From: Natrarchaeobius oligotrophus
Lineage (GTDB): Archaea > Halobacteriota > Halobacteria > Halobacteriales > Natrialbaceae
DNA: 64,000 nucleotides
Assembly (NCBI RefSeq): GCF_003841465.1
Contig: NZ_REFZ01000002.1
Span: 186,001-250,000, forward strand
Reading direction: 5' to 3'
Positions within the stretch are counted from its first letter, which is position 1. Every line of letters begins with the position of its first letter. A model generated the notes under the pieces. That model made no database searches. It was not told the origin of the DNA and saw nothing but the letters and a program-made list of their open reading frames with translations. Shown here piece after piece: positions 11,093 through 26,441 of the stretch. The position numbers were made by a program, and so were the translations under genes.

Positions 11093-11917
11093 TTAGAGGT
11101 CCATGCTGACGTCGTTCGCCCAGAACAGGAGTCGCTGACGAAGCACGGCGAGCAGTCGATCGAACAACACGCCGATAAGCGAGATTACGACGACGGCCGC
11201 GAACACGGTCTCGGGTTCGAACGACGCCTGTGAGTAGATAATGAGGTAGCCGATCCCCCGGGACGCGGAGATCATTTCGGTGACGACGGTGACGATGATC
11301 GCAATCGGCATCGCCATCCGGATTCCCGAGAAGATGTACGGCAGGCTGCCGGGCAGAACCACCTCCTTGAACAGTTGATACTGAGACGCACCGAAGTTCC
11401 GGGCGGACCAGATGTACCGTTCTTGTACGCCACCGACGCCGTAGTACGCACCCAGGATGATCGGAATCAACGCCTCGACGAAGATGATCGCGATTTTCGA
11501 GGAGTGACCGAAACCGAGGATAACCAGCAACAGTGGGTAGAACGCGATCCGCGGCACCGGATACAGCGAGCTGATGTACGGCTCGAGGAGATACTCGACC
11601 TTGCTGGACGAACCCATCATCAGGCCGAGCGGGACGCCGACCAGCACGGCGGCAACGAAGCCGACCATGACGCGATAGAGGCTCGCCCAGATGTGCGGAT
11701 ACACCGAGCGGTCGACGAAGAACATCTCCCACAGCCGCTCGGCGACGGCGGGGACGTCGGGGAGCAACAGCGGGTTGTCGACGTACATCGCGGTGAACTG
11801 CCACAGGACCACCACTAACAGTACCGAAACGAATCCGAGGATCCGAGAGGACTCCTTGAACCGCGAGAGGATCTGTTCGATGCTGGTTCCGGTGGTGGTG
11901 GTTCGCGACGCCATCAC
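11093..11917 (-). CDS. ABC transporter permease, NitT/TauT type
   Basis: A 274-residue membrane permease of the binding-protein-dependent family: an N-terminal helix (ILGFVSVLLVVVLWQFTAMYV) and five further hydrophobic segments. The EAA-type cytoplasmic loop (IWSARNFGASQYQLFKEVVLPGSLPYIFSG) lies at about 190-220 and contacts the ATPase. The SARNFGAS-x-FKxVxLPxxLPxIxxG pattern is that of SsuC/TauC/NrtB proteins. Its start overlaps the stop of the upstream permease by 4 bases (ATGA), so the two are translated together and probably form a heterodimer. Substrate unknown. Confidence 0.92.
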   Translation of the reverse strand: MMASRTTTTGTSIEQILSRFKESSRILGFVSVLLVVVLWQFTAMYVDNPLLLPDVPAVAERLWEMFFVDRSVYPHIWASLYRVMVGFVAAVLVGVPLGLMMGSSSKVEYLLEPYISSLYPVPRIAFYPLLLVILGFGHSSKIAIIFVEALIPIILGAYYGVGGVQERYIWSARNFGASQYQLFKEVVLPGSLPYIFSGIRMAMPIAIIVTVVTEMISASRGIGYLIIYSQASFEPETVFAAVVVISLIGVLFDRLLAVLRQRLLFWANDVSMDL

Positions 11918-12747
11918 GCATCACCCCCGTGTGTCCACGAGAGAATCCGGTTTCGAACGGCAAGCAAGGCTCGATCGTGAACGAATCCGAGCGCGCCGAT
12001 CACCGCGATCGCGGCGAACATGAGCTCGAAATTGTTCCCCTGTTGGGCCGAAACGATGAGGCTTCCGAGTCCGATCTGGGCCGCGATGAGTTCGACGGAG
12101 AAGATGACGACGAACGCGAGCGCCAAGCTGATGCGGAGGCCCGAGAGAATCTGTGGAAGACAGCTCGGCAGGATGACCTTGAGAAAGATCAGCAGCCTGG
12201 AGGCGTTGAAGTTGCGCGCCGACCAGATGTAGAGTCCGTTGATATTTTTCGCCCCGTCGTACGTGTAAATGTACGTCGGATAGAAGGCCGCCAGAAAGAC
12301 GACGATGACCTTGGACGTGAATCCGAGCCCGAACCAGATGAGAAAGATCGGAAAGAGCGCGATTTTAGGGATCGGATACGTGATCGAAATGAGCGGGTCG
12401 AACATTTTCCCGAGGACGTCGACGCGCCCGTTGACGAGACCCGAAGCGATGCCGAGCGTCGCACCGCCGAAAAATCCAACGTAAACGAGCTGGAGCGAGG
12501 CGGACGCGTTCGGAACGAGAACCCCCTCCTGTACCAGTTCGACGATCTCGAGAACGATCACGGACGGCGCTGGTAGGTAGTACGGCAAGACGTTCACAGC
12601 ACCCCCGAGTTGCCAGACGACGAACAACGCCAACACCGGCGCGTAGTTGACGAGGCTATCTCGGACTCTCGAACCCACGCCAGCCGCACGTCCAGTGGGC
12701 CCGAAACGCGGGGTACGATCACTGTCCGTTGAAGTCGTTTCTGTCAT
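11914..12747 (-). CDS. ABC transporter permease, NitT/TauT type
   Basis: A 277-residue permease paralogous to its downstream partner. It has a basic, Thr/Ser-rich cytoplasmic N-terminus, six predicted membrane helices and the EAA loop YIWSARNFNASRLLIFLKVI followed by LPSCLPQILSG. First gene of a minus-strand operon. A TATA-like sequence (AGATTTTTATTGG on the minus strand, about 12773-12788) lies 30-40 bases ahead of the start. The two permeases have no ATPase gene beside them and are presumed to use the one at 8791. Confidence 0.92.
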   Translation of the reverse strand: MTETTSTDSDRTPRFGPTGRAAGVGSRVRDSLVNYAPVLALFVVWQLGGAVNVLPYYLPAPSVIVLEIVELVQEGVLVPNASASLQLVYVGFFGGATLGIASGLVNGRVDVLGKMFDPLISITYPIPKIALFPIFLIWFGLGFTSKVIVVFLAAFYPTYIYTYDGAKNINGLYIWSARNFNASRLLIFLKVILPSCLPQILSGLRISLALAFVVIFSVELIAAQIGLGSLIVSAQQGNNFELMFAAIAVIGALGFVHDRALLAVRNRILSWTHGGDA

Positions 12748-12892: not shown

Positions 12893-13324
12893 ATGGTTGG
12901 TAGCGCGGTACACTACGGACTGAACGTATCGGACATGGACGACGCGCTCGCGTTCTACGAGGGAACCCTCGGGCTCGAAGTCGACCGTCGGTTTCCGATC
13001 AGCGACGTACAGAGCGACATCGTCGGCGTCGACGGCGTCGACGGCGACATCGCGTTTCTCGACGCGGGCGGCTTTTCGATCGAGTTAATCGCCTACGATG
13101 AACCGGCGAACGAGAACGTCCACGACGAGGCGGACGGTCACGACGTCGGCGTTGCTCACCTCTGTCTCGAAGTTGACGACGTCTGGAAACGCTACGAGAC
13201 ACTCGAGGACGAGGTCGAGTTCATCAACGAACCGCAGACGGTCGGGAACGGCGCACAGATCGCCTACCTCCGGGATCCCGACGGAAACTACGTCGAACTC
13301 ATGGAGCCGCCGGCCGACACGTAA
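12893..13324 (+). CDS. VOC-superfamily (glyoxalase-like) protein
   Basis: A 143-residue two-module vicinal-oxygen-chelate protein. The modules start at HYGLNVSDMDDALAFYEG and VGVAHLCLEVDDVWKRYE. The four typical metal positions are filled: His7, Glu64 (FSIELIAY), His89 and Glu135 (DPDGNYVELMEP). This pattern is shared by glyoxalase I, methylmalonyl-CoA epimerase and small dioxygenases, so the reaction cannot be fixed. Start at MVGSAVHYGL, where the first module begins. It lies between the divergent permease operon and the binding-protein gene, suggesting a role in metabolising the imported compound. Confidence 0.82.
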   Translation: MVGSAVHYGLNVSDMDDALAFYEGTLGLEVDRRFPISDVQSDIVGVDGVDGDIAFLDAGGFSIELIAYDEPANENVHDEADGHDVGVAHLCLEVDDVWKRYETLEDEVEFINEPQTVGNGAQIAYLRDPDGNYVELMEPPADT

Positions 13325-13422
13325 TCGAACGACACGCGCGGTGGCGGTCAGTTTCGCCCCGCTGGCGGACATCGAAACCCGTCCGGATCGACGCGGGGAA
13401 ACACTTATTATGGGCCAATTTT

Positions 13423-13436
13423 ATAACATACGTTAT
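13423..13436. promoter_or_regulatory. Inverted repeat at the binding-protein start
   Basis: ATAAC-ATAC-GTTAT is a perfect 5+5 inverted repeat that overlaps the start codon at 13435 of a probably leaderless gene. A TATA-like ACTTATTATG lies at 13403-13412. A protein bound here would cover the transcription and translation start. Confidence 0.35.
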
Positions 13437-14502
13437 GCCAACACGTCCCGAGAGTGGTGCTGAGAGTGGTATTTCACGGCGAGCAGCGATAGCGGCCTCT
13501 GGTGTCGCGCTGACGGGCGGATTCGCCGGCTGTCTCGATTCGAACGGCAACGGTAACGGCACCGGAAACGGCAACGGTAACGGTACTGGCAACGGGAACG
13601 GCGACGTACCGACGATCACGCTCGGTCACGGAATCGCCGCGGAAGAGCCCCTCTGGTTGATGGAGATCATCTCGGACGAACTCGATCACTGGGGCGAAGC
13701 GTACGAGGCGGAGTTCATTCCGTTCAGCGCGAACGACGAGCGTCTCCAGGCGTTTCAGGCGGGGGAACTTCAGGCCGGAACCGCGGCGGCGATTACGACG
13801 ATCTTCGCGACCGAAAGCGGTCTGCCGATGACCGTCGTCGCGAACGTTTCCCAGTCGCGAGAAGAGACGTTCACCGAGGAGTTCCTGGTCACTCCGGACT
13901 CCGACATCGACGGGCTCAACGCGGAATCGCTCCAGGATACCCGGATCGGCATCTGTGCACCCCGGTCGTCCTGTGACATGTGGGCCCAGTCGGCCGCACT
14001 CCAGGCCGGCCTCGAGGTCGGATCGGACGTCGAAGTGGTCGTTACGCCGTTCCCCTCGATGCCCGAAGCCGTCAACGGCGGCGAGGTCGACACGGCGATG
14101 TTCCCCCAGCCGTTCCACCACACCGGAATCAACGAAACCGGTCTCGAACCGGTTTTCGACGTCATCGACGCGACCGGGTTCGAACACGACCTGATGGAGC
14201 TGTGGTTCTCGACGCAGTTCCTCGAGAACAACGGCGAGGTCGTCGAGTTGTTCCTCGACGACTACGCCACGGCGGTCGAACAGTTCAACGACGATCCCGA
14301 GTCGTCCCTCGAGATGATCGCCGAAGCCGGCTACGTCGAGACGCCGACCGAACTGTACGTCGACTTACCCTACTACACGTACTCGGTGAGTCCGATGACC
14401 GAGAGCCTCGAGGAGATCAACTCGCTCGCGGTCGAGATCGGCTGGCTCGACGAGGAAGTGTCGATCGATCACCTCTGGGACCTCTCGTATCTCCCGGACT
14501 AA
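13435..14502 (+). CDS. ABC substrate-binding lipoprotein, NitT/TauT type
   Basis: A 355-residue exported binding protein. The N-terminus carries a twin-arginine-type signal (SRRAAIAASGVALTGGFAGC) with a lipobox, then a low-complexity Asn-Gly linker (about residues 36-58) typical of haloarchaeal lipoproteins. The mature domain is NMT1/SsuA-like: VPTITLGHGIAAEEPLWLMEI, FQAGELQAGTAAAITTIFA, and a hinge region with CAPRSSCDMWAQSAALQAG. It would capture the solute for the permease pair at 11093-12747 and the ATPase at 8791. The ligand is unknown; the family takes up nitrate, sulfonates, aromatic acids and thiamine or pyrimidine precursors. The neighbouring catabolic genes suggest an aromatic or heterocyclic acid. 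Confidence 0.9.
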   Translation: MPTRPESGAESGISRRAAIAASGVALTGGFAGCLDSNGNGNGTGNGNGNGTGNGNGDVPTITLGHGIAAEEPLWLMEIISDELDHWGEAYEAEFIPFSANDERLQAFQAGELQAGTAAAITTIFATESGLPMTVVANVSQSREETFTEEFLVTPDSDIDGLNAESLQDTRIGICAPRSSCDMWAQSAALQAGLEVGSDVEVVVTPFPSMPEAVNGGEVDTAMFPQPFHHTGINETGLEPVFDVIDATGFEHDLMELWFSTQFLENNGEVVELFLDDYATAVEQFNDDPESSLEMIAEAGYVETPTELYVDLPYYTYSVSPMTESLEEINSLAVEIGWLDEEVSIDHLWDLSYLPD

Positions 14503-14731
14503 TCGTAGCGAACACCTCGAAAACGACGATCGCGACGACCTTTTGGCGGTTCGTTCGGTTGCAACCGCGTCGTTCACTCGGTCTAGCGATGACGACCCTC
14601 GACAACCGATCGTCTCGGCGGCTGTGAGGCATAACGGTCGCGCGTCGTACGGGTAACTGGTTCGAACGAACCCGTGACTGGTCGACAGTTCTCGTCACCG
14701 CGAACGTACCCGGATGAAAGCATCCGAGACC

Positions 14732-16393
14732 TCACCAGATCCGCCGCGAGACGTACTCCGCGGTCGGATCGATGCGGACGTCGAGCACCACGTGTTCGTC
14801 GGCCTCGAGAGCCTCCTCGAGCGCCGGGCGAACCTCGTCCGGTTCGGTGACGCGGATTCCGCGGACGCCGAACGATTCGGCCATCGTCGCCACGTCGACC
14901 GTCGGAATGTCGGTCGCGACCTCGGAGTATCCGGCCTTGCGCTGGTAGTTCCAGATCATCCCGTACTTGCCGTCGTTGAAGACGACCGTCACCGCGTCGG
15001 TGCCGGTCTCGACGGCGGTCGCGAGTTCCATGTTACACATCAGGAAGCCGCCGTCGCCGATGAGGTTGACGACCTGTCGGTCCGGATCGACCAGCTTCGC
15101 CGCGTTGCCGGCCGGGACCGGAAAGCCCATCGAGTCGTAGAGTCGAGAGTGCTGGAAGCTGTTCGTCTCCCGGTACTCGAAGGCGTCGTTCGGCCACGCG
15201 CCGCCGGCGGCCCCCGCGTCGCCGGTCAGCAGGACGTCGTCGTCGGCCACCTCGCGAAGCGCCGTCATGATCACGAGCGGGTGGATCGGCGTCCGATCTC
15301 GAACCTCCTCGAGGTAGGCCTCGACGTCGTCCGCGACGCGGTCGGCTTCCTCCCGAACCGCCTGGGCGTAGGCCGCGTCGGTCGCGCCGGCGTTGCCCTC
15401 CAGCGCCGCGGCGGCGTCCGCGAGGGCAGGACCGAGGTCGCCGGAGACGACCTCCGCGGCGCTCGAGGCCGGGAACTCGTACGGCGGATCGTCGAGGTAG
15501 ACGATCGAGACGTCGTCGGGCGTCCGGTCGCCCAGCACCGCGGCCTCGTGGGAGTTCGTTCGAACGCCGAGCGAGAGAACGGCGTCGGCGTTCGCCAGCG
15601 CGGTCGTCGCTGCCGGGTGGTCGGACATGCCAACGGTGCCGGCGAACAGCCGGTGGTCGTTCGGGAACGAATCGGGGTAGTGTCGCGGGCAGACGACGGG
15701 TGCGTCGAGCGCCTCGGCGATCGCGACGACTTCGTCGGTCGCGAACGCGCGCAGGACGCCCTTTCCGACGTACAGACAGCGCTGCTCGGCCGCGCGGATC
15801 GGCTCGAGCGCGTCGTCGACGGCGGCCGACGACACCGCCGGTTCGTCGTGGGACTCGTGTTCGAACGCCTCGTCGGGAACGTCGACTTCGTTCTGCAGGA
15901 CGTCCTCGTCGACGCCGACGAACACCGGGCCGGGGCGGCCGCTGGTCGCGACGTCGAACGCCCGAGCGACGACCTCGGGGAGGCGATCGGCGTCGTGGAC
16001 CTGCGTGCTCCACTTCGTGGCCGGTTCGAACGCTTTCCGGAGGAAGTGCTGGTCGTCGACGCCGTGAAGCGCCTCCGTGTGCTCGTCCTCCGGGAGCACG
16101 GCGCTGATGAGGATCATCGGAGAGGCGGCGGTGTAGGCCTGTGCGACGCCGGTCAGCGCGTTCGTGCCGCCCGGTCCGGCGACGGTGACGGCGATTCCGG
16201 GGTCTCCGGTGAGTCGACCGTAGGTGTCGGCCATCACGGCCGCGTTGTACTCGTGGCGTGCGGTGATCACGTCTGCTCCGCGCCGATCGAGTCCGTCCGC
16301 GATCGTCACCGTCTGGTTGCCCAGCAGTACGTACGCCTCCGAGACGCCGTTTTCGGCGAGGACACTCGCGACGGCGTCGCCTCCAGTTGTCAT
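14732..16393 (-). CDS. Thiamine-diphosphate-dependent enzyme (acetolactate synthase-like)
   Basis: A 553-residue ThDP enzyme with the full three-domain architecture. The PYR domain holds catalytic Glu48 (ITARHEYNAAVMADTYGRLTG). The central domain spans about 190-335, and the PP domain has the Mg/ThDP motif GDGG at 446-449 with Asn473 (VVFNDGKYGM). Length and motifs fit the acetolactate synthase, benzoylformate decarboxylase and sulfoacetaldehyde acetyltransferase group. No FAD or carboligase-specific marker could be assigned, so decarboxylation of a 2-oxo acid and carboligation are both possible. It follows the Rieske dioxygenase operon on the same strand, 78 bases after the small subunit. 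Its own TATA-like element (CACCTTTAATAGG, minus strand, about 16411-16423) suggests partly independent expression. Confidence 0.9.
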   Translation of the reverse strand: MTTGGDAVASVLAENGVSEAYVLLGNQTVTIADGLDRRGADVITARHEYNAAVMADTYGRLTGDPGIAVTVAGPGGTNALTGVAQAYTAASPMILISAVLPEDEHTEALHGVDDQHFLRKAFEPATKWSTQVHDADRLPEVVARAFDVATSGRPGPVFVGVDEDVLQNEVDVPDEAFEHESHDEPAVSSAAVDDALEPIRAAEQRCLYVGKGVLRAFATDEVVAIAEALDAPVVCPRHYPDSFPNDHRLFAGTVGMSDHPAATTALANADAVLSLGVRTNSHEAAVLGDRTPDDVSIVYLDDPPYEFPASSAAEVVSGDLGPALADAAAALEGNAGATDAAYAQAVREEADRVADDVEAYLEEVRDRTPIHPLVIMTALREVADDDVLLTGDAGAAGGAWPNDAFEYRETNSFQHSRLYDSMGFPVPAGNAAKLVDPDRQVVNLIGDGGFLMCNMELATAVETGTDAVTVVFNDGKYGMIWNYQRKAGYSEVATDIPTVDVATMAESFGVRGIRVTEPDEVRPALEEALEADEHVVLDVRIDPTAEYVSRRIW

Positions 16394-16471
16394 ACTACTC
16401 GAACGATATCCCGTCCTATTAAAGGTGTCGTCGCCGTCCGAAACCGGCGATTCGAATCGGCCGTCGACGAC

Positions 16472-16939
16472 CTAGAAGACGTGAACGTCGTCGTCGTCGT
16501 CCGGCCCGTACGGCGTTCGCAGCAGCTCCGAAAAGAACGTCTTCGGTTCGTCGATCAACGCGGCGAGAACGCGAGCGTCGACGACGGTTCCGTACCCCAT
16601 CTTCGGCGCGGTGAGCCATACGCTTTTGCCGTCGTCGCTCCGGCGGAGCCGGGCGATGGCGTACTCGTTCGTGATCTGCAGGTCGGCGACCGACTTCGGA
16701 GCGGGATCGACCTCCCGAAACTCGTACTCGTCGTCGATCAACTCCTCGAAGAAGTCCGCGTCCTGCCACGTCAGCGCCTCCAGTTCGATCGCGTCGAGAC
16801 AAGTTCGACCGAGCTCGTCGTGCTCGACCTGGATCCGCGCGCCGGTGGGCGTCCGCACTTTCGTTAGCACGACGCGCGTCCCGTCGGTCTCCACGTCGAT
16901 GCGGTCGACGTCCGCGGTGGGGTAGTATCCGTCGGTCAT
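16472..16939 (-). CDS. Small protein linked to ring-hydroxylating dioxygenase
   Basis: A 155-residue acidic protein whose start overlaps the beta-subunit stop by 4 bases, so it is translated with the dioxygenase. The C-terminal half (ITNEYAIARLRRSDDGKSVW, then APKMGYGTVVDARVLAALID and SELLRTPYGP) resembles short proteins sometimes annotated as dihydrodiol dehydrogenase but lacking any nucleotide-binding fold. The first half seems to be a related repeat: RTPTGARIQVEHDELGRTCLDAIELEALTWQDADFFEELI. A two-module accessory or third subunit of the oxygenase is the best reading; this is inference from position and weak resemblance. Confidence 0.7.
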   Translation of the reverse strand: MTDGYYPTADVDRIDVETDGTRVVLTKVRTPTGARIQVEHDELGRTCLDAIELEALTWQDADFFEELIDDEYEFREVDPAPKSVADLQITNEYAIARLRRSDDGKSVWLTAPKMGYGTVVDARVLAALIDEPKTFFSELLRTPYGPDDDDDVHVF

Positions 16940-17454
16940 AGGATGATCGAAAGCGAGGGCGTTCCCACGACGGTGTGGTCGAGCAACACGGTGCGATCGG
17001 CGAGTCGCCAGGAGCCGTCCACCCGCCTGAGCGTATCCCGCCGTTCCGCGGAGAGCAGGTCCGGCTCCGTGTCGTTGGCTCGAAGTCGGTGGACGAGAAG
17101 GTTACTCCGGATGGAAACCTCTCCCGCGTCCGGATCTTCGTCCGCGACCCGGACGTTCGAGACGAACCGCCGGTTTCGCGACGGGGGATCCTCCGACCAG
17201 GCGAAGTCGTTCTCCATGCGCTCGACGCGCACCTTGAGCGAGCCCCAGTCTTCGATCATGTGAAACGACTCCTCGCTGAACTCCGTCTCGGCGGAGCGCT
17301 CTTTGGTCGTCCGCACCGGAACCCGGTACTCGACGTCGTCGGTGATGAGCGTCTCGTGCCACTCGAGCAGGTCCCGGTCGTCCAGTAACTGTGCCTCGCG
17401 GTAGAGGAAGTTCTCGCAGGATTCGCGCAGCGAGTTGGCCTCGAGTTCCCACAT
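16936..17454 (-). CDS. Ring-hydroxylating dioxygenase beta subunit
   Basis: A 172-residue protein of the NTF2-like beta-subunit family: an N-terminal helix (FLYREAQLLDDRDLLEWHETLITDDVEY) and a conserved core (RRFVSNVRVADED, then VSIRSNLLVHRLR) with a C-terminal WRLADRTVLLDHTVVGTPSLS. Beta subunits have no cofactor; they build the alpha3beta3 hexamer. The start lies one base past the alpha stop, and the stop overlaps the next gene, so the three form one operon. The length is typical of the family. Confidence 0.88.
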   Translation of the reverse strand: MWELEANSLRESCENFLYREAQLLDDRDLLEWHETLITDDVEYRVPVRTTKERSAETEFSEESFHMIEDWGSLKVRVERMENDFAWSEDPPSRNRRFVSNVRVADEDPDAGEVSIRSNLLVHRLRANDTEPDLLSAERRDTLRRVDGSWRLADRTVLLDHTVVGTPSLSIIL

Positions 17455-17455
17455 G

Positions 17456-18811
17456 CTATCGATCCTCCGTCATGGTCCGGTGCCACTTTCGATAGAACTC
17501 GAGTTGGTTTTCGTCGGTCATGCCGCCCTCCCGGTAGACCGTTCCCGGGCCGGGCCAGGACTCGTCGACTTCGGCAACCGTCCCTTCGCCTCGTCCCATC
17601 GAGAAGACGGTGGTGGCGTTTACCCGTTCGGCGAAGACGCTGTCGGCCGCCTCCGGGATGCCGTCCCAGATGCCGATGTCGTCGACCTCGAAGTTGCCCG
17701 AGAGGCTGAACGTACCCACGCCGACCTCGTACACCCGGTCCTTGTACTCCTGTGGGGCGTCTTTCGGAACCATGATCCAGTTCCAGGCCTCCATCTTCCC
17801 CGGCTCGATGGGCTGCCACTGACGGAGACAGAACGTTCCGACGGTGTCTTTGTCCGGATCGTCGGAGCCGCCGAGGTAGATGAACGAGAGGTTCGGGAAA
17901 ATGGTTCCGAGCGAGACGCCCGACTGTCTGGCGACGCGGTACTGGTCGTCGGTGAGACGATCGGGGTGGAACGTCTCGATCACTTCGGGGGGATGGCCCC
18001 AGAAGAAGTCCTCGTCGGGAATCTGGTAGATGCTGAACGCATGGCCTCCGACCTCCGAGATGGCGTACAGCTCCGATTCCTTCTCGCCTTTGGCCGTTTC
18101 GCTCCCGATGCCGACGTCGATCGCGGACTTGTGGCCCATCGGCACGTGGTAGTTGTCGCCGTAGAAGTTCTCGGCGGGCGTCTTCCAGTCCGTGTCGATC
18201 TCCCAGCGATGGGGGTCCCCGATGACCTCCATGTCCGCGAGCTCGAAGTACAGGTCGAGGTACCACTTCGACGGTCCGAGGTACGTCTCGAGGTCGGGCG
18301 CGTCGGGGTCGAGCGACGCGAACACGAGCCCGTTGTAGCTGTCGACGTTCGGCGCCGCGTGGAGCCCTTTCTCCTCCACGTCGAGTTCCGGGAATCCGTC
18401 CCCCTTTCGCGGCACGCCGATGAGTTCGCCGGTGTTTCGGTACGTCCAGCCGTGGTACGGACAACGGAAGTGAGTCGTGTTCCCTTTTTCGGCGCGACAC
18501 ACTTTCGCGCCCCGGTGTCGGCAACTGTCCCAGAGGACCTGCACCTCGCCGTTTTCGTCCCGGACGAAGATGAACGGATCCTTGCCGATGTACCGCTGGC
18601 GGTAGTCTCCCTCCTCGGGTATCTCGGATTCGTGGCCGACGTACACCCAGTTCGTCGCGAAAATGCGCTCGAGTTCGCGTTCGAACACGTCATCGTCGTG
18701 AAGTATCTCGAGGAGAGCCTCGCCCTGCTCGAGGGCGTCACCCATCCGCTCGAGTTTCGACTCGATGGGGGCGCGACTACCGCGTGCGTCCCCAGTCCTG
18801 TTCTGTGCCAT
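17456..18811 (-). CDS. Ring-hydroxylating dioxygenase alpha subunit (Rieske)
   Basis: A 451-residue catalytic subunit. Rieske [2Fe-2S] ligands are Cys97, His99, Cys117 and His120 (CRHRGAKVC ... FRCPYHGW). The mononuclear iron site has Asp219 (the bridging residue), His222 and His227 (DNYHVPMGH), with the acidic ligand in NFEVDDIGIW near 377-378. This is the size of benzoate, naphthalene or biphenyl dioxygenase alpha subunits. The enzyme inserts both oxygen atoms into an aromatic ring to give a cis-diol. No dedicated reductase or ferredoxin gene is present here, so electrons must come from elsewhere. A TATA-like sequence (ATAACTTAGATAACC, minus strand, about 18833-18847) lies 22-36 bases ahead of the start. 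Confidence 0.93.
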   Translation of the reverse strand: MAQNRTGDARGSRAPIESKLERMGDALEQGEALLEILHDDDVFERELERIFATNWVYVGHESEIPEEGDYRQRYIGKDPFIFVRDENGEVQVLWDSCRHRGAKVCRAEKGNTTHFRCPYHGWTYRNTGELIGVPRKGDGFPELDVEEKGLHAAPNVDSYNGLVFASLDPDAPDLETYLGPSKWYLDLYFELADMEVIGDPHRWEIDTDWKTPAENFYGDNYHVPMGHKSAIDVGIGSETAKGEKESELYAISEVGGHAFSIYQIPDEDFFWGHPPEVIETFHPDRLTDDQYRVARQSGVSLGTIFPNLSFIYLGGSDDPDKDTVGTFCLRQWQPIEPGKMEAWNWIMVPKDAPQEYKDRVYEVGVGTFSLSGNFEVDDIGIWDGIPEAADSVFAERVNATTVFSMGRGEGTVAEVDESWPGPGTVYREGGMTDENQLEFYRKWHRTMTEDR

Positions 18812-18872
18812 ACTAGGTGTTCATCGTGCGCAGGGTTATCTAAGTTATGGGTCCTGTCGCCACGACACCAGG

Positions 18873-19775
18873 TTAGGCGAGCGCGACGAAGACGACGCCG
18901 AGGATAATGACGGCTGCACCGACGACGACGCCCCGGGTCACTCGTTCGACGCGCTTGAGAAAGAGCACGGTAAAGAGGGCGGCGAACAGCGGCGAGGTGC
19001 CGGCGAGGGGATCGACGACGATCACCGGACCGCGACTGAGCGCGGTGAACAGCGAGAGAAGCGCGAGACTCGAGAGGAGACCGCCGACGGCAAAGAGCGC
19101 GTACGTGCGACGGGACGCCACGAGAACGCCCGGCCCGTGTCGGACCAGCGCGTAGCCGACGAGAACGCCCATCGCCGCGAACTCGTTCAACACGAACGCC
19201 GAGAGGACGTCCGTCTGGGTTACGGTGAAGCCGTAGCGGCGAACGACGTTGCCCGCACCGTAGGCGATGGCGGCGAACAGCGGGAAACCGAGTTCGTACC
19301 ACGACCACCCACGGATGTCGCCGCCCCGAGACAGCGAGACGAGCACGACGCCGGCGACGATCACGACGATCCCCAGCCCGAGCCAGCCGGTGATCGGTTC
19401 GTTCAACAGCGCGACCGCGAGCAACCCGGCGAACAGTGGACGCGTGTTCAAGATCGCCGTGTTGACGCTGACGCCCACCCGATCGACGCCGACGTAGACG
19501 ACGATCCGTCCGAGCGAACTTCCGATCACGCCGCCGAACAGAAAGATCGCCGCCCCGGTTCGCGACACACCCAGGTACGACTCCGTCGGCCCGTAGACGA
19601 CGGTCGCGATCGTCACGAACAGCGAGAAACTCACGATGACGGCGACGACCGACGCGAGAATGGAGTTGCCGTCCCGTTCAAGCCCCTTTTTCATGAAGAC
19701 GGGATTGAGGCCCCACAGCACGGCCGCACCGATCGAAAACAGGAAGACGTCTATCGTCGCCGGCATCGTCTCCAC
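18873..19775 (-). CDS. EamA/DMT-family transporter
   Basis: A 300-residue membrane protein with about ten hydrophobic segments arranged as two EamA repeats: first from VFLFSIGAAVLWGLNPVFMKKGL, second from YELGFPLFAAIAYGAGNVVRRYGF. The ending VTRGVVVGAAVIILGVVFVAL is typical of the drug/metabolite transporter superfamily. Direction and substrate of transport cannot be read. It is upstream of the dioxygenase operon on the same strand and diverges from the diol dehydrogenase at 19972. A second EamA gene lies at 23171, so the catabolic island carries two. The ATG at 19775 or the one at 19766 may be used. Confidence 0.88.
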   Translation of the reverse strand: METMPATIDVFLFSIGAAVLWGLNPVFMKKGLERDGNSILASVVAVIVSFSLFVTIATVVYGPTESYLGVSRTGAAIFLFGGVIGSSLGRIVVYVGVDRVGVSVNTAILNTRPLFAGLLAVALLNEPITGWLGLGIVVIVAGVVLVSLSRGGDIRGWSWYELGFPLFAAIAYGAGNVVRRYGFTVTQTDVLSAFVLNEFAAMGVLVGYALVRHGPGVLVASRRTYALFAVGGLLSSLALLSLFTALSRGPVIVVDPLAGTSPLFAALFTVLFLKRVERVTRGVVVGAAVIILGVVFVALA

Positions 19776-19971
19776 CCGAATCCCGCGCGATCGGTCCGCG
19801 TCGTCGCGCGAACGCCGTCCCTCGAAGCCGTTACCATCGTACTCCTACCGTGGCGGCCGCGTTACTTAGAGGTAGCTGTTCGAACGCCTCGCTCGACGGC
19901 CGTGTTCCTGACGGCCGCCTCGAGAACGGACGACAGGAAGATATTTCCGATCCACCCGCGATGACTCGCCC

Positions 19972-20811
19972 ATGGGTTGGCTCGATAATCGCGTTGCACT
20001 GGTTACCGGCGGCGCATCAGGACTGGGACGAGCCGTCGTCCGACGATTCGTCGACGAGGGCGCGTCCGTCGGCGTACTCGACGTGTCGGCCGACGGGCTG
20101 GACGATCTCGAGGACGAACTCGGGAACTCCGTGGTTACGATCGCGGGTGACGTCACACGGCTCTCGGACAACGAGACGGCGGTCGAACGAACGGTCGACG
20201 CGTTCGGTCGGCTCGACGTCTTCGTGGGCAACGCCGGCGTCTTCGACGACAACGTCACGATCGCGGAGCTCCCCGAGGACGACGAGGCGCTCGCCAAGAG
20301 CTTTCGGGATCTCTTCGATATCAACGTCCTCGGCTACCTCCTCGGCGCGAAAGCGGCGCTTCCCGAACTGGTGGAGACGAACGGGAGAATGGTGTTTACC
20401 GCCTCGGGTGCGAGCTTCGCACCCGACGGCGGCGGCTCGCTGTACGTCCCGTCGAAACACGCGGTCGCCGGTATCATCCGTCAGCTCGCGTTCGAACTCT
20501 CGCCGACGGTCAGCGTCAACGGCGTCGCGCCGGGGTACGTCCCAACGGACCTCTCGGGTATCGACTCGCTCGAGCGCGACGAGGGCGGTCTCATCGACGA
20601 ATCGGAGTTCGATCCGTCGGTTCACCCCGCCGGAATCGTTCCGACCCCAGACGACTACGCGGGGGCGTACGTACTACTCGCATCCGAGGAGAACTCCCGG
20701 CCGATGACGGGGACGATCGTCCGCGCAAATCTCGGACGAGACGTCCGGGGAATCGGAGCCGTCTCGGGACGGGCGCTCGAGTTCGTCACCGACGGACTCG
20801 ACGGAGCGTAA
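19972..20811 (+). CDS. cis-Dihydrodiol dehydrogenase-like SDR
   Basis: A 279-residue classical short-chain dehydrogenase. The NAD site is VTGGASGLGR at 11-20 with an acidic residue after the second strand (VLDVS) favouring NAD. The active site has Ser145 or Ser148, Tyr158 and Lys162 (TASGASF ... SLYVPSKHAVAG). Several segments match the biphenyl/benzene cis-diol dehydrogenase (BphB) group: FDINVLGYLLGAKAALPELV, GGGSLYVPSKHAVAGIIRQL and VNGVAPGYVPTDLSGIDSL. It would oxidise the cis-diol made by the Rieske dioxygenase, rearomatising the ring to a catechol-like product with formation of NADH. Convergent with the NicX-like gene and divergent from the EamA/dioxygenase block. Confidence 0.88.
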   Translation: MGWLDNRVALVTGGASGLGRAVVRRFVDEGASVGVLDVSADGLDDLEDELGNSVVTIAGDVTRLSDNETAVERTVDAFGRLDVFVGNAGVFDDNVTIAELPEDDEALAKSFRDLFDINVLGYLLGAKAALPELVETNGRMVFTASGASFAPDGGGSLYVPSKHAVAGIIRQLAFELSPTVSVNGVAPGYVPTDLSGIDSLERDEGGLIDESEFDPSVHPAGIVPTPDDYAGAYVLLASEENSRPMTGTIVRANLGRDVRGIGAVSGRALEFVTDGLDGA

Positions 20812-20939
20812 ACCGAAAAATCGATCGGTCCGATGCGGGATATCCGACGTGAACGCGCGGGTCACGCGGACCGGTGTCCGTCAGGCCCGATCCAACCACG
20901 TCCGGCGGTTGCACCGAAACATCGGTGTAGCAGGACGTC

Positions 20940-21992
20940 TCAGTCGACAAGTTCGCCTTCTTCGACGACCGGTTCGCCGTCGAGGTAGACGTTGCAGTTC
21001 TTCTGGGCGATGTCGTAGTGACAGTTCGTGTACCGGTCCTGGTGGGTGTTCGGGCCCGTACTCCAGAGCATGTTCCCCTCCCAGACGCGGCCTTCGCTCG
21101 CGCTCACGCCGGTCTCGTCGGGTTTTCGATCCTTGATCGCCATGTTGTAGAACGTGCCGTTTTCGTTGAGTCCCCAGCCGAAGTGACTCGTCGCGAAGAC
21201 GTCGCGGTCGTCGTAGCTCTCCATGTGGCCGCGCATCAACTCGGCGTCGCCACCGTCGCCGTTGATCGCCTCGATGAAGCCGTCCTCGACGACGCACTCG
21301 ATCGACGAGTCGACGTAGTCGTTGAACGGGACGACGTTGTAGTCGCCCGCGGCGATGACGATCGTTCCGTTGACGCTCGTCGGGTAGTTCGAGACCATGT
21401 TCTGGCCCCAGACGTCCCACTTGCCCGGTTCGTCGACGAAGCCGTAGGAGTCGAAGGCGGTGTCGGGTTCGACCTCCATCGTCACGTCGGTGCCGTACTC
21501 CGAGGTGATTCGCATCTCGTCGGCGGACTCGAGCAACTCGCGGTGGGCCTGCACCTTCTCTTTGACCGCGGCGGCCTCTTCGGGCTCCCAGGGCATCAGG
21601 CGGCGCAACACGAACGGCTCGCGGGCACCGACGCGCAGAATTCGCGTTCCGGCGTCCCGGATCTCGCCCCGCTCGGGGACGTGGATGAATCCCTCGAGGG
21701 TGAAATCGAAGACCATGTCGGCGCTCTTGCAGGCCTCGACGGGGCCTCGGGGAAGTCGAAGGCTGCCACCCTGTCCGGCGGAGACTTCGGCTCCGACAGA
21801 GTTGCGACCGTACTCCGGAATCTGTACTTCGAAGACCTCTGCGCCGATGTCCTGTGCCGCGGCGAAGCTCGCGGCGACGTGTTCGCGATTGCTCTTGACG
21901 TCGGTAACGAGCGCCACAGCCTCGTCGTCGGTCACCTGACAGTGTTCCATCTGCCGACGGAACATCGGCACTAATAGTCCAGCAGCTTCCAT
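20940..21992 (-). CDS. NicX-like 2,5-dihydroxypyridine 5,6-dioxygenase
   Basis: A 350-residue protein, the same length as Pseudomonas NicX, with many conserved blocks: AGTRILRVGAREPFVLRRLMP, GFVDEPGKWDVW, TSHFGWGL, WEGNMLWSTGPNT, and NCHYDIAQKNCNVYLDGEPVV. The three iron ligands known in NicX (two His and an Asp) fall here at His270, His325 and Asp327 with matching spacing. NicX opens the pyridine ring of 2,5-dihydroxypyridine to N-formylmaleamate. The fold is shared with M29 aminopeptidases, which is the usual misannotation. The start at 21992 gives family length and is about 30 bases from a TATA box; a further upstream codon at 22049 would place the start beyond it. The true substrate may be another electron-rich heteroaromatic diol. 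Confidence 0.85.
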   Translation of the reverse strand: MEAAGLLVPMFRRQMEHCQVTDDEAVALVTDVKSNREHVAASFAAAQDIGAEVFEVQIPEYGRNSVGAEVSAGQGGSLRLPRGPVEACKSADMVFDFTLEGFIHVPERGEIRDAGTRILRVGAREPFVLRRLMPWEPEEAAAVKEKVQAHRELLESADEMRITSEYGTDVTMEVEPDTAFDSYGFVDEPGKWDVWGQNMVSNYPTSVNGTIVIAAGDYNVVPFNDYVDSSIECVVEDGFIEAINGDGGDAELMRGHMESYDDRDVFATSHFGWGLNENGTFYNMAIKDRKPDETGVSASEGRVWEGNMLWSTGPNTHQDRYTNCHYDIAQKNCNVYLDGEPVVEEGELVD

Positions 21993-22019
21993 GGTACAGT
22001 TGATGATTTCGTCGAGAGC

Positions 22020-22032
22020 ATAAATAAGTTGC
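22020..22032 (-). promoter_or_regulatory. TATA promoter of the NicX-like gene
   Basis: On the minus strand the sequence reads GCAACTTATTTAT, with the box centred about 32 bases before the ATG at 21992. It supports that start over the in-frame codon at 22049, which lies upstream of the box. Confidence 0.55.
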
Positions 22033-22192
22033 GTGCCGACGCGACGCACGACCGACTCCGGCGCTCTCCGTCGGCGGCCGTCGCCGTCGGACGCGGCCGG
22101 TCTGACGCACAGGTCGTTGTGACGACGATCGGACGCGCGGTCGTTCGACCGATCCCACTACAATTATTAGCCTGCCACAGAGAAGACGCCGT

Positions 22193-23017
22193 ATGAGTCG
22201 ATCGATCGGTATCTTTGGCGGCGGTACGATTGCGACCGAGATCGCACGCGCGATTTCGGACGGAACGCTGTCGGCCGAACTCGCAGCCGTGTACGACCGA
22301 CACCCGGAGAACGTCAACCGGATTCAGGCGCTGTTCGACCAGGAATCGGCCCCCGACGAGGCCGACGATCCGTCAGCCCTGCTCGAGGCGGATCTCGTCC
22401 TCGAGGCGGCGGGACAGACGGCCGTCGAGCAGATCGCCGTCGACGCGCTCTCTGGCGGCCGCGACTGCATGATCCTGAGCGTCGGGGCGCTCGCAGACGC
22501 GGCCCTTCGCAAGGGGGTGTTCGAAGCCGCACGCGCGAGCGAAGGGCGACTGTACGCTCCGTCGGGAGCGATCGCAGGACTCGACGCCGTCAAAACCGCC
22601 GCGCTCACCGGCGACCTCGAGTCCGTCGCCCTGACGACGACGAAGCCGCCGGCCGGGCTCGAGGGCGCGCCCTACGTCGTCGACAACGAGATCGATCTCG
22701 CGGATATCGACGAACCGACCGTGATCTTCGACGGTCCGGCGACGGAAGCTGCGGCGGCCTTCCCCTCGAACATCAACGTCGCGGTCGCGCTCAGCCTCGC
22801 GGGTATCGGTCCGGACGAAACCGCGGTGCGCATCGTCGCGGACCCCGAGGAGGAAAACAACGTCCACGAGATCACGGCCGAGGGCGGGATGGGCCGGATC
22901 GAGACCACCGTTCGGAACGTCCCGTCGCCGACGAATCCCAAGACGAGTTATCTCGCGGCCATCTCGGCGATCGAAACGCTGCGCGGGCTCGAGACGTCGA
23001 TCGACATCGGGACGTGA
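22193..23017 (+). CDS. nadX: L-aspartate dehydrogenase
   Basis: A 274-residue NAD(P)-dependent dehydrogenase matching the NadX family throughout: Rossmann motif IFGGGTIATEIARA at 7-20, ILSVGALAD, the substrate block APSGAIAGLDAVKTAALTGD at about 122-141, TTTKPP, FPSNINVAVALSL, catalytic His225 in IVADPEEENNVHEI, and the C-terminal VPSPTNPKTSYLA. The enzyme interconverts aspartate and iminoaspartate/oxaloacetate plus ammonia, and usually feeds NAD biosynthesis. No nadA or nadC is present. Here it is divergent from the NicX-like gene and surrounded by catabolic genes, so a role in releasing or fixing ammonia from an N-heterocycle is possible. A TATA-like TACAATTATTAGCC lies at about 22154-22168. 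Confidence 0.92.
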   Translation: MSRSIGIFGGGTIATEIARAISDGTLSAELAAVYDRHPENVNRIQALFDQESAPDEADDPSALLEADLVLEAAGQTAVEQIAVDALSGGRDCMILSVGALADAALRKGVFEAARASEGRLYAPSGAIAGLDAVKTAALTGDLESVALTTTKPPAGLEGAPYVVDNEIDLADIDEPTVIFDGPATEAAAAFPSNINVAVALSLAGIGPDETAVRIVADPEEENNVHEITAEGGMGRIETTVRNVPSPTNPKTSYLAAISAIETLRGLETSIDIGT

Positions 23018-23170
23018 CGGGAATCGAGCCGGTTCGACGAACCTCACCGCTTCGACCCCACGTCACCGTCTCGTCCGCGAGCGCTCGATGCGATCACGGG
23101 CACCCGTAGACGACTCAGACGAATCGATCGGAAACGCGATTCGAAGCAACCGATTCGGTACACGACTCGA

Positions 23171-24049
23171 ATGGAACTCCCGGTTCAGATCCTCCTCGCG
23201 CTCGGAACGGCCGCCGCCTTCGCGACGTCCTCGGTCCTCGTCAGGTTCGGCGTAGAGCGTTCGACGCCGATGGCCGCGATGTTCGCGACGGTGAGCGTCA
23301 ACGTCGTCGTGCTCTGGACGATCAGCCTCGCGCTGTACGACGTGACGATCGATCTCTGGGCGTGGCGTTACTTCATCCTCGCCGGCGTGTTCGCGCCCGT
23401 GCTCGGCCGACTCTGTAACTACGTCGGGCTCGAGCGCGTCGGCGTGAACCTGACGCTTCCGATCAGCAACTCGAACCCGCTGATCTCGGTCGTACTCGCC
23501 ATGGTTCTGCTCGGGGAGTCGCTGACCCGCCAGGGCGGCGTCGGGGCTCTCGCCGCGATCTTCGGCGGGATTCTCCTGGCGACTGCGGGTCGAGACGACG
23601 GCGTCGCCGACGTTCGATACCGCGACCTGCTGTTTCCGGTCGCCGGGGCGGTCATCTACGGTAGCGTTCAGCTCCTGCGCAACGTCGGGATGGAACTCGT
23701 CCCCGAACCCGCCGTCGGGGCCGCGGTCAACCTCACGACGTCGTGGCTCGTCGCGGCAGCGTTTTTCGCCGTCGCGCCGAACCACCGGTCGGCGCTGTCG
23801 ATTCCGCGGAGCGATCTGCGGTACTTCGTCCTCGCGGGCGTCGCCTCGAGCCTCGGACTGATCAGTCTGTACGCCGCGTTCCGATCGGGAACGGTCGTCG
23901 TCGTGACGCCGATTCTCAACGCGACGCCGCTTTTCGCTCTCGCGTTGACCTACGCGTTCCTGCGCGAGCGCGAGCCGTTCACGCCGCAGGTCGTCGCCGG
24001 CACCGTTCTGGTCGTCGCGGGCGTCGCGTTGCTCGCGACGTCGACGTGA
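23171..24049 (+). CDS. EamA/DMT-family transporter
   Basis: A 292-residue membrane protein with about ten hydrophobic segments in two EamA repeats: LALGTAAAFATSSVLVRFGVE at the N-terminus, and FPVAGAVIYGSVQLLRNVGM starting the second half. The conserved ending TPQVVAGTVLVVAGVALLAT matches the 19775 transporter in type but the two differ clearly in sequence. Located 153 bases after nadX on the same strand and 77 before the VOC gene, so probably part of one expression unit. The transported compound is unknown. Confidence 0.87.
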   Translation: MELPVQILLALGTAAAFATSSVLVRFGVERSTPMAAMFATVSVNVVVLWTISLALYDVTIDLWAWRYFILAGVFAPVLGRLCNYVGLERVGVNLTLPISNSNPLISVVLAMVLLGESLTRQGGVGALAAIFGGILLATAGRDDGVADVRYRDLLFPVAGAVIYGSVQLLRNVGMELVPEPAVGAAVNLTTSWLVAAAFFAVAPNHRSALSIPRSDLRYFVLAGVASSLGLISLYAAFRSGTVVVVTPILNATPLFALALTYAFLREREPFTPQVVAGTVLVVAGVALLATST

Positions 24050-24126
24050 CTCCCGGATGCGCCACCGGCTTCCGAGAGGCGGAACCGATCGGAAAACTCA
24101 ATACCCCTCGGTAACGCCTGTAGTAC

Positions 24127-24699
24127 ATGGTCGTTGATAACATGGGCTTAGACCACGTTGCGATCAAAGTACGGGATCTCGAGCGGACGATCGAGTTTTA
24201 CACCGACGTGATGAACATGGCAGTCTCCGACAGGATCGGCGACTCGGTGGCGTTTCTGCGCACGCCGGCCGTCTCCGAGACGGCCGACCATCACGAGATG
24301 AACGTCACGCAGTACTCCGACGAAGAACTCGACGTCCTCGAACAGCGGGGCGAACTCGAGGTCGACCTCCACGACTTCGAGGAGGACCTCCCCGAGGACG
24401 GACCGCCGATGCTGCCGACGACGGGACCCATCTACCACATCGCGTTCGAAGTTCCGAACTTCGCGTCGATCAAAGCCGCCGCCGAGGAACTCGAGAACAG
24501 AAACCACCCGATCTACCGCGGACCGGGTCGACACGGTCCCGGGAACAACATCTTCCTGTACTTCCCCGACCCCGACGGGTACGCGATCGAACTGAGTGCG
24601 AAAATGGAAGAGGCACCGGAGGACGGCGGGCGACCGGCTCGACAGTGGCCGAAGTCCCCGGACACCTGGAACGTCTGGCGAAACGCCGAAGACCTGTAG
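24127..24699 (+). CDS. VOC-superfamily dioxygenase-like protein
   Basis: A 190-residue protein with two VOC modules. Likely metal ligands are His10 (LDHVAIKV), His104 (IYHIAFEV) and Glu155 (DPDGYAIELSAKM), the His-His-Glu set of Fe(II) or Mn(II) extradiol ring-cleavage enzymes. It has an acidic insertion (about 76-93) and a C-terminal tail (PARQWPKSPDTWNVWRNAEDL) seen in catechol 2,3-dioxygenase-like proteins. It could cleave the diol produced by the dioxygenase and dehydrogenase, or be a non-oxidative VOC enzyme. Last gene of the plus-strand unit nadX-EamA-VOC. An alternative start lies 15 bases downstream (MGLDH). Confidence 0.82.
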   Translation: MVVDNMGLDHVAIKVRDLERTIEFYTDVMNMAVSDRIGDSVAFLRTPAVSETADHHEMNVTQYSDEELDVLEQRGELEVDLHDFEEDLPEDGPPMLPTTGPIYHIAFEVPNFASIKAAAEELENRNHPIYRGPGRHGPGNNIFLYFPDPDGYAIELSAKMEEAPEDGGRPARQWPKSPDTWNVWRNAEDL

Positions 24700-25190: not shown

Positions 25191-25658
25191 GAAGAGCCAG
25201 ATATAGTATATTTTCGATATTTCACGGATCAGTACAGAGATAACACTAATATATAAAATCATAATTTTAATGGGTAGCTCCTCGATGTTGTTGGTATAGT
25301 AGTGGTATTTTCTAAGCCAATGTGTGTTGCAAAGTCACAGTGAGACGTCTCGAGCGGTCGTGATCGGCGAGGAGCGATCCAATACAACGCACTGAGCCTG
25401 ATGCACCGAGTCGAACGAATTCTGCAATCGGTTACCGGGACCAGCGGGGGAAGTAGAGAAGAGGGAAATATAATTATTATATCATATATGAGTTTTTTAT
25501 ATGAGTTCGATATCATTCGACGGGCCTTCAGCAGTCGCCGCTCGCTGATTCGAGCGATCGAATCGCGACGCTCGCGGCTTCATCGTAAGGAGACGATGGC
25601 GCGGCGTCGGCACGGACGAGTGCGTAACGATAAGTGGCTGCGAGACGGTGTAGCCGAT

Positions 25659-26441
25659 ATGTCCGCGCCACGACGCCTCCAAACGCTCGAGAACGCGACC
25701 GAGATGATCGATCACATCCGGGCCGCGGACGGCCTCGCGGTCACGGAGTTGGCGGAGCGCGTCGAGATGAGCCCCGGAACGGTACACACCTACCTGAGCA
25801 CGCTGAAAGCCCAGGGATACATCGAACAGCGAGGGTCAGAGTATCGACTGGGACCGACGCTGCTCACCCACGGCGAGTACTACCGAAACAAGAATCTGCT
25901 GTTCAGAGCGGGGAAAAAAGAGGTTGAACAACTCGCGACCGACACCGGAGAGTGCATCCACCTCATCATCGAACACAACGGGGAGGTGATCACCCTCTAC
26001 GACGAGTTCGGCACGAAAGCGGTCGGAACGAAGTACCACACGCACTGGCGCGAGGAACCGAAAAGTTACCTGCACTGTATCTCGGCCGGAAAGGCGATCC
26101 TCGCGGGAATGTCGGACAAAGAAGTGTGGGAGATCATCGAAACGAAAGGGCTCGAGCGACAGACGCCCAATACGATCACGGATCCGGAGGAGTTGTTCGA
26201 CGAGCTAGACCGAATCCGGGAAACCGGGGTCGCCTGGAACGACGAGGAGGAGGTCGTCGGCATTCGGGCCGTCGGCGTCGCGATCACGGACGCCGACGGG
26301 GAGGTCCTCGGCGCGATCAGCCTGACCGCGCCGACGAGTCGAATGGCCGAGGACTACTTCCGAGAGGAGTTACCGCAAAAGCTGAAAAAGGCCGTCAACA
26401 TCATCGAAGTCAAAATCGAGACGAACGACTTTCACTACTAG
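25659..26441 (+). CDS. IclR-family transcriptional regulator
   Basis: A 260-residue regulator. The winged helix-turn-helix is at about 5-70 (RLQTLENATEMIDHIRAADG, LAERVEMSPGTVHTYLSTLK). The IclR effector domain follows, with YLHCISAGKAILAGMSDKEVWEI and the conserved AISLTAPTSRMAEDYFREELP. Start at MSAPRRLQ, where the family similarity begins; in-frame extension upstream into the AT-rich region is not protein-like. It faces a convergent aminotransferase gene (26475-27740), 33 bases away, and probably controls nearby catabolic genes. Confidence 0.9.
   Translation: MSAPRRLQTLENATEMIDHIRAADGLAVTELAERVEMSPGTVHTYLSTLKAQGYIEQRGSEYRLGPTLLTHGEYYRNKNLLFRAGKKEVEQLATDTGECIHLIIEHNGEVITLYDEFGTKAVGTKYHTHWREEPKSYLHCISAGKAILAGMSDKEVWEIIETKGLERQTPNTITDPEELFDELDRIRETGVAWNDEEEVVGIRAVGVAITDADGEVLGAISLTAPTSRMAEDYFREELPQKLKKAVNIIEVKIETNDFHY

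Follow-up and report, generated by a model that had tools for sequence, protein, structure and literature searches.

A conserved haloarchaeal gene cassette that probably serves degradation of a two-ring N-heteroaromatic acid, with kynurenate as the best single candidate

The formation of 7,8-dihydroxykynurenate and of glutamate from kynurenate (4-hydroxyquinoline-2-carboxylate) in Pseudomonas is classical, as indicated by titles cited in two papers (PMC5610271, PMC11354673). NicX, which acts on 2,5-dihydroxypyridine (DHP), binds Fe via His265, Ser302, His318, and Asp320 and contacts its substrate via E177 and H189; the double mutant of these contacts is inactive on DHP (PMC7910607). For haloarchaea, the available sections of two reviews describe gentisate, catechol 1,2-dioxygenase, and protocatechuate 3,4-dioxygenase routes for aromatic compounds (PMC6140281, PMC4005966). 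Here, we analyze a gene cassette in a 64,000-nt stretch (G000:C2:186001-250000, hereafter the window) of the 4.61 Mb genome of the haloarchaeon Natrarchaeobius oligotrophus. A sequence-only reading had described a catabolic island at this place, and every gene that it named is a full-length open reading frame (ORF) there, with family support from family-model and structure-database searches. The cassette probably encodes a pathway for a two-ring N-heteroaromatic acid, for which kynurenate is the best single candidate. We tentatively propose that the acid is imported and is most likely kynurenate or a close quinoline-2-carboxylate.

The core set comprises a thiamine diphosphate (ThDP) enzyme, Rieske oxygenase alpha and beta subunits with a small partner protein, an HcaB-like short-chain dehydrogenase/reductase (SDR), a NicX-like protein, the aspartate dehydrogenase NadX, an EamA transporter, the VOC protein VOC2, and an alpha/beta hydrolase. 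A class-wide search covered 391 haloarchaeal genomes; roughly 30 to 50 kb were fetched around each NicX-like ortholog, and the window proteins were mapped onto these regions. NicX-like orthologs with at least 77% identity occur in 10 of the 391 genomes, and the remaining matches reach at most about 61 bits, bar a 40% identical paralog in the window's own genome. At E ≤ 1e-120, the ThDP enzyme is found in exactly the same 10 genomes and in no other, and VOC2 is found in 9 of the 10 and in no other. If the two genes were independent, identical profiles of 10 in 391 for the NicX-like and ThDP proteins would have a chance of 1/C(391,10), or about 5e-20, although linked transfer means that the events are not independent. 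All nine of the other genomes encode the ThDP enzyme, the NicX-like protein, NadX, and Rieske alpha/beta with the small protein, while the transporter EamA2, VOC2, the SDR, and the alpha/beta hydrolase are each encoded in eight. In one of the nine, G070, the Rieske alpha/beta and small-protein genes lie 14 kb away, with 53% identity.

Two further carriers were found on GTDB contigs, namely Haloarcula amylovorans and Halobacteriales archaeon YIM A00010, bringing the total to 11 other genomes and 12 in all. Carriers named in the plasmid and GTDB searches include Halocatena salina, Salinigranum rubrum, Halostella pelagica, Haloferax elongans, Natrialba chahannaoensis, and Halostagnicola sp. A56. 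The carriers span several haloarchaeal families, and three copies of the cassette are on plasmid records. Gene order and orientation vary between genomes, while the gene set is constant. Because 11 other genomes carry the set in rearranged order, and because the NicX-like and ThDP profiles are identical, the cassette is not a chance cluster. We take it to be one horizontally mobile catabolic unit. The co-occurrence in related genomes that the sequence-only reading had anticipated is thus borne out.

The presence of two predicted ring-cleaving dioxygenases in one conserved cassette, the NicX-like protein (20940 to 21992, minus strand) and VOC2 (24127 to 24699, plus strand), argues for a bicyclic substrate. 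VOC2 is a single-domain protein with a full extradiol residue set: metal residues H10, H104, and E155 and catalytic residues H55-H56, H136, and Y145 are conserved in all 11 aligned orthologs. These roles were assigned by motif from the pattern of the type I extradiol family (e.g., homoprotocatechuate 2,3-dioxygenase), and by sequence VOC2 is a candidate for a catalytically complete type I extradiol dioxygenase. This assignment, which the sequence-only reading overlooked, shifts the interpretation from a single ring to a pair of rings. G070 has no VOC2; just beyond NadX, beside the same ThDP, NicX-like, and NadX genes, it encodes instead a catechol-2,3-dioxygenase-like protein with two domains. 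A monocyclic pyridine-2-carboxylate (picolinate, dipicolinate, quinolinate, or a derivative) is a rather unlikely alternative substrate. The Rieske oxygenase and SDR would then yield a dihydroxypyridine carboxylate, the NicX-like protein would be the sole ring opener, the hydrolase would split the N-acyl product, and NadX would take the iminosuccinate half, leaving the ThDP enzyme to act on a small 2-oxo acid and VOC2 to serve as an accessory isomerase or hydrolase. This would suit the conservation of NadX and the NicX-like protein in all carriers, and the pairing of a hydrolase with a NicX-type enzyme resembles NicX/NicD logic. However, an extradiol set that is invariant in 11 orthologs and a two-domain extradiol replacement in G070 are unexpected for an accessory role, and Rieske/SDR pairs less usually dihydroxylate a bare pyridine ring.

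NadX (22193 to 23017, plus strand) speaks to the fate of the nitrogen. It scores 288.3 bits against NF009830 (cut-off, 267) and 237.2 bits against TIGR03855 (cut-off, 206.55) and thus passes both. A role in NAD synthesis is less likely, since the genome encodes two nadB homologs at other loci, the better of which scores 421.6 bits, just under its cut-off of 452.75. The sequence-only reading was right to call this protein an aspartate dehydrogenase, but rather than handling released ammonia, NadX more likely takes ring nitrogen as iminosuccinate/aminofumarate. Its presence suggests that the nitrogen leaves as iminosuccinate, that is, that the carbon next to nitrogen bears a carboxylate.

Two further enzymes would connect ring cleavage to NadX. 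The ThDP enzyme (14732 to 16393, minus strand) belongs to the acetolactate-synthase/2-oxoacid decarboxylase superfamily and is a putative decarboxylase of the ring-cleavage 2-oxo acid; such a decarboxylation is the natural next step because no meta-cleavage hydratase or aldolase genes were recognized in the cassette. The DUF1749-like alpha/beta hydrolase (9820 to 10692, minus strand), a proposed N-acyl/amide hydrolase, has a GRSLG nucleophile, Ser119, with Asp240 and His270 (numbered from the ATG at 10692). It is conserved at 64 to 88% identity in 10 of the 11 other genomes; the exception is G119, where the 50 kb examined did not contain it. Structure prediction (pLDDT, 72.6) gave a generic alpha/beta hydrolase; monoglyceride lipases and feruloyl esterases matched it best, which offers no hint of the substrate. 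The gene lies outside the coordinates of the sequence-only reading, which overlooked it.

Another bicyclic N-heteroaromatic compound, such as quinaldate without 4-hydroxylation, a quinolone, an indole carboxylate, or an isoquinoline acid, is again a rather improbable substrate. The same two-ring logic would hold with different ring-2 chemistry, and all the two-ring evidence applies. Molybdenum (Mo) hydroxylases of a family that commonly oxidizes N-heteroaromatics are encoded close to genes for Rieske, ThDP, and extradiol VOC proteins both in G070 and on plasmid pNK84 of Caballeronia sp. NK8, with NadX in the same cluster; this would fit quinoline-type hydroxylation and counts for the kynurenate reading as well. 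The G070 cassette adjoins UbiD, UbiX, and a Mo hydroxylase that curated models do not assign. Plasmid pNK84, reached by a NadX search, carries genes for a ferredoxin, Rieske alpha, an SDR, a cupin, an alpha/beta hydrolase, IclR, an SDR, ThDP, NadX, an aldehyde dehydrogenase (ALDH), an extradiol-type VOC protein, and a ferredoxin reductase, with a second Rieske/ThDP/VOC set and a three-subunit Mo hydroxylase about 10 kb further. However, the window cassette has no Mo hydroxylase, and without a carboxylate next to nitrogen and a C4 oxygen, opening the ring would give no simple aspartate-level fragment, leaving NadX unexplained.

Upstream of ring cleavage, the Rieske oxygenase and the SDR would supply a diol. 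Rieske alpha (17456 to 18811, minus strand) has the Rieske motif (C97-x-H99 / C117-xx-H120) and catalytic His222, His227, and Asp377/378, and it is accompanied by a beta subunit (16936 to 17454, minus strand; Ring_hydroxyl_B, PF00866). The nearest solved structures to the alpha subunit are the Rhodococcus naphthalene dioxygenase and phthalate 3,4-dioxygenase; it is about 40% identical to Rhodococcus plasmid alpha subunits, scores 231.9 bits against the HcaE NCBIfam equivalog (under the cut-off of 830), and has basic residues that were not decisive when inspected on the alignment. The SDR (19972 to 20811, plus strand), a putative cis-dihydrodiol dehydrogenase of the HcaB/BphB group, retains its catalytic residues (Y158-VPS-K162) and comes near, but stays under, the cut-offs of two models (317.2 bits against NF004849, cut-off 330; 304.2 bits against HcaB, cut-off 450). 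These likenesses to the naphthalene and phthalate dioxygenases and to HcaB favor a carbocyclic aromatic acid of the phthalate, phenylpropionate, or polycyclic aromatic hydrocarbon type, for which the Rieske oxygenase, SDR, and VOC2 would form an upper pathway while the NicX-like protein, NadX, and EamA served unrelated nitrogen metabolism. We consider this unlikely: the NicX-like, ThDP, and NadX genes are in every carrier and so are not incidental, ordinary meta-cleavage hydratase/aldolase genes are missing from those recognized, and G070 keeps the NicX-like/NadX/ThDP/hydrolase block with a different upper part.

The gene after Rieske beta encodes a small, 155-aa protein (16472 to 16939, minus strand) that the sequence-only reading listed in a Rieske alpha/beta/small operon. 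The gene is there, but its product is not a Rieske subunit: it matches no Pfam or NCBIfam family, lacks a cysteine motif, and consists of a tandemly duplicated unit of about 70 aa. In an AF2 model (pLDDT, 84.5), each unit is predicted to be beta4-alpha2. A single-unit version lies between Rieske beta and hcaB on Geobacillus plasmid pBt40, and matches on Rhodococcus, Thermus, and Thermomicrobium plasmids occur with Rieske genes, some annotated as "dihydrodiol dehydrogenase"; loci noted besides the window are L063:3552-3758 and L069:13857-14333. The protein is likely an uncharacterized partner of this Rieske oxygenase group. A PUR-repeat likeness from the fold search was weak (E, 1.4e-3; TM, 0.28) and was not used. 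A third Rieske alpha/beta/small-protein operon of the same genome (L056; G000:C4:207000-210000) has alpha and beta subunits with 48 to 51% identity and adjoins ABC (ATP-binding cassette) importer genes. In Salinigranum rubrum (G322), the Rieske alpha match is split between two neighboring segments that are not in the same frame (L047:13586-14883), where only a short SRPBCC protein is annotated; the gene is possibly frameshifted.

The NicX-like protein matches NicX (PDB 7cn3) with 177.7 bits (E, 2.6e-51) over residues 26 to 368, and no Pfam or NCBIfam model matched it. Counting from the ORF start at 22049, its Fe ligands are H289, S330, H344, and D346, which are invariant among 10 aligned orthologs; the sequence-only reading had the family right, and what it called a metal triad is a set of four protein ligands (His, Ser, His, and Asp). 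The equivalents of NicX E177 and H189 are S201 and V213, also invariant in the 10 orthologs, while the His189 equivalent is kept in the own-genome paralog on contig 9 and in all bacterial relatives tested. NicF (amidase) and NicE (isomerase) are absent from the window cassette and the annotated plasmid copies; in the Rhizobium and Pseudomonas neighborhoods examined, they flank NicX. Because both DHP contacts are replaced and NicF/NicE are missing from the cassette, the protein is, by its residues and gene neighborhood, a NicX-type iron dioxygenase with a substrate other than DHP. The opening of DHP to N-formylmaleamate in a nicotinate- or picolinate-like pathway, as the sequence-only reading had it, is therefore very improbable despite clear NicX-family membership and intact Fe ligands, since the Ser/Val pair marks a whole clade whose other examined relatives keep His, NicF/NicE homologs are missing, and a DHP route has no place for NadX and the ThDP enzyme. 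That reading was right in taking an N-containing aromatic ring as the substrate class and wrong about the NicX substrate.

Relatives of the NicX-like protein outside the cassette were also surveyed. In 72,556 plasmids, bacterial matches stayed at about 36% identity or less, with no bacterial ortholog among them, and the GTDB genome scan gave six confirmed relatives, all from haloarchaea. The bacterial NicX neighborhoods examined were mostly of the NicX/NicF/NicE/NicD type or unrelated. The contig 9 paralog, with its His189 equivalent, belongs to a second NicX/Rieske cluster of the same genome with a different make-up (G000:C9:107000-137000; L053, L054, and L055). This cluster also encodes a carbon-nitrogen hydrolase, an SDR, a small protein, Rieske beta/alpha, a Mo hydroxylase, a two-domain extradiol VOC protein, and asparaginase-like, ThDP, and ALDH proteins.

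From the gene set, its conservation, the catalytic residues, and the altered NicX substrate residues, we infer a substrate, an order of steps, and a reaction for each. The families of a dihydroxylase, a diol dehydrogenase, an extradiol dioxygenase, and a 2-oxo acid decarboxylase occur together in one conserved cassette, as far as family presence goes. The kynurenate route was chosen because, among the classical pathways known to us, it alone combines dihydroxylation and diol dehydrogenation of a quinoline-2-carboxylate with extradiol cleavage and removal of a 2-oxo acid carboxylate. Kynurenate would be imported by a NitT/TauT ABC system (in other carriers, by Na+/solute symporters) under IclR control. 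Rieske alpha/beta would dihydroxylate the benzenoid ring at C7-C8, and the HcaB-like SDR would rearomatize the cis-diol to 7,8-dihydroxykynurenate. Extradiol 8,8a-cleavage by VOC2 would leave a pyridine with a 3-carboxy-3-oxopropenyl side chain, a 2-oxo acid that the ThDP enzyme would decarboxylate, possibly with an internal redox reaction that yields the carboxyethyl group directly. Next, the NicX-type Fe(II) dioxygenase may open the dihydroxypyridine ring between the carbon bearing the C4 hydroxyl and C5, giving an N-acyl-aminofumarate. The alpha/beta hydrolase would split the N-acyl bond to yield 2-oxoglutarate and aminofumarate/iminosuccinate, and NadX would reduce the latter to l-aspartate. 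The carbon balance of this proposed route closes, as the nine carbons after decarboxylation equal 2-oxoglutarate (five) plus aspartate (four), and each core enzyme would have one job.

Several observations weigh against kynurenate or against this assignment of steps. Sequence cannot separate kynurenate from other quinoline-2-carboxylates. Tryptophan 2,3-dioxygenase (PF03301) was found in 0 of the 391 haloarchaea, which speaks against an endogenous supply from tryptophan by this enzyme, and kynurenate would therefore be exogenous and need import. The plasmid search and GTDB genome scan gave no bacterial ortholog cluster that could anchor function. Decarboxylation in the classical kynurenate pathway gives an aldehyde that needs an ALDH, and no ALDH is conserved in the cassette. 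VOC2 lacks the N-terminal domain found in most extradiol enzymes, and there is no ferredoxin or reductase gene among the cassette genes of the window and the annotated plasmid copies. Also, the Caballeronia ThDP enzyme is only 26% identical to that of the cassette, the accompanying Rieske oxygenase belongs to a different type, and a cupin is present. Homarine was also considered, which yielded nothing useful.

The transport module differs among carriers. In the window, the NitT/TauT-type importer consists of an ATPase (8752 to 9558, plus strand), two permeases (11093 to 11917 and 11914 to 12747, both minus strand), and an NMT1/SsuA-like substrate-binding protein (13435 to 14502, plus strand). 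The ATPase gene is kept beside the cassette in G211 and G053 (64 to 65% identity), which share this kind of importer, while Salinigranum and Halocatena have a sodium:solute symporter with a protein of about 100 aa instead, and matching ORFs occur in G087, G263, and G247. An IclR-family regulator of uncertain ORF start (7780 to 8679, plus strand) has its nearest cassette-side relatives in the latter three genomes (73%, 67%, and 63% identity, respectively). EamA2 (23171 to 24049, plus strand) is a cassette member in 9 of the 11 other genomes; EamA1 (18873 to 19775, minus strand) has a close copy only in the congener G119 and a weaker one in G070. VOC1 (12893 to 13324, plus strand) is glyoxalase-like, has neither the HH nor the GRH motif of extradiol enzymes, and occurs in 7 of the 11.

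At the right edge, a second IclR-family regulator (25401 to 26441, plus strand) has an uncertain ORF start and is at most a possible cassette member. Beyond it, positions 26475 to 38902 encode a class III aminotransferase, an ALDH, an M20 peptidase, a LIV-type ABC importer, and a 1,023-aa FAD/Fe-S oxidase (glycolate/lactate oxidase-like), which together look like another catabolic island. The aminotransferase, ALDH, M20 peptidase, and LIV-ABC genes at 26 to 36 kb were rejected as parts of the cassette, with which they are not conserved. A three-subunit Mo hydroxylase of the xanthine dehydrogenase/CO dehydrogenase type (45964 to 49780) is encoded 20 kb away from the cassette, close to a gene for an ABC permease. 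It was likewise rejected, being 32% identical to the cassette-side Mo hydroxylase of G070 and not conserved with the cassette.

In the literature searched, we could not find such N-heteroaromatic metabolism described in archaea, nor its genes named in any organism; the sequence-only reading had likewise known of no established archaeal pathway with this gene set. It is possible, if doubtful, that the cassette is the first gene set, here in archaea, for degrading kynurenate (or a different quinoline-2-carboxylate) completely under aerobic conditions. It would then supply genes for activities known only biochemically, a NicX-type opener of a substituted dihydroxypicolinate, a ThDP enzyme acting on an extradiol product, and a NadX that recovers ring nitrogen as aspartate. 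If the proposed pathway is true, N-heteroaromatic catabolism would join the known abilities of archaea, candidate genes would be at hand for the 7,8-route of kynurenate breakdown, which dates from the 1960s, the small NicX family of iron dioxygenases would gain a new substrate class, and NadX would gain a catabolic role. Since Haloferax elongans and other haloarchaea that can be cultivated carry the cassette, in part on plasmids, direct growth, induction, and deletion tests can be made. Even with a wrong substrate guess, a conserved ten-gene, two-dioxygenase island without a described archaeal function is a concrete target.

Among known systems, the routes described for haloarchaea share with the cassette the aerobic catabolism of aromatic acids, while the available sections of the reviews describe no N-heterocycle route (PMC6140281, PMC4005966). 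The HcaEFB, NarA, and phthalate 3,4-dioxygenase systems likewise combine Rieske alpha/beta with an HcaB/BphB-type dehydrogenase, whereas the cassette has no adjoining ferredoxin or reductase genes and has other ring-cleavage and downstream genes. Novosphingobium resinovorum plasmid pSA2 has a ThDP/NadX/ALDH/Rieske/VOC/cupin set similar to that of Caballeronia pNK84, and other bacterial NadX neighborhoods examined had no such gene set. Both plasmids bring together Rieske alpha, ThDP, NadX, an extradiol-type VOC protein, and IclR (in Caballeronia, also an SDR and an alpha/beta hydrolase), but their Rieske oxygenase is of another type, ALDH and a cupin are present, and there is no NicX-like gene. 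Because its proteins are only distantly related, the Caballeronia set is, judged by such comparisons, an analogous solution, not the same cluster. NicX itself (PDB 7cn3, 7cnt, and 7cup) shares its family and His-Ser-His-Asp iron site with the cassette protein, in which both DHP-binding residues are replaced and whose neighbors are Rieske, SDR, extradiol VOC, ThDP, and NadX genes, without NicF/NicE. The best fit is with the classical kynurenate 7,8-dioxygenase route of Taniuchi and Hayaishi in Pseudomonas (EC 1.14.99.2, 1.3.1.18, and 1.13.11.10). No gene assignment for this route was found in the open-access literature searched. The route requires ring dihydroxylation, dehydrogenation of the cis-diol, extradiol cleavage, and loss of the carboxylate of a 2-oxo acid, for each of which the cassette has a candidate enzyme, and the expected end products match C4-N plus C5 fragments. 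The known route is bacterial and described biochemically, whereas the cassette genes come from haloarchaea and the second ring would be opened by a NicX-type enzyme.

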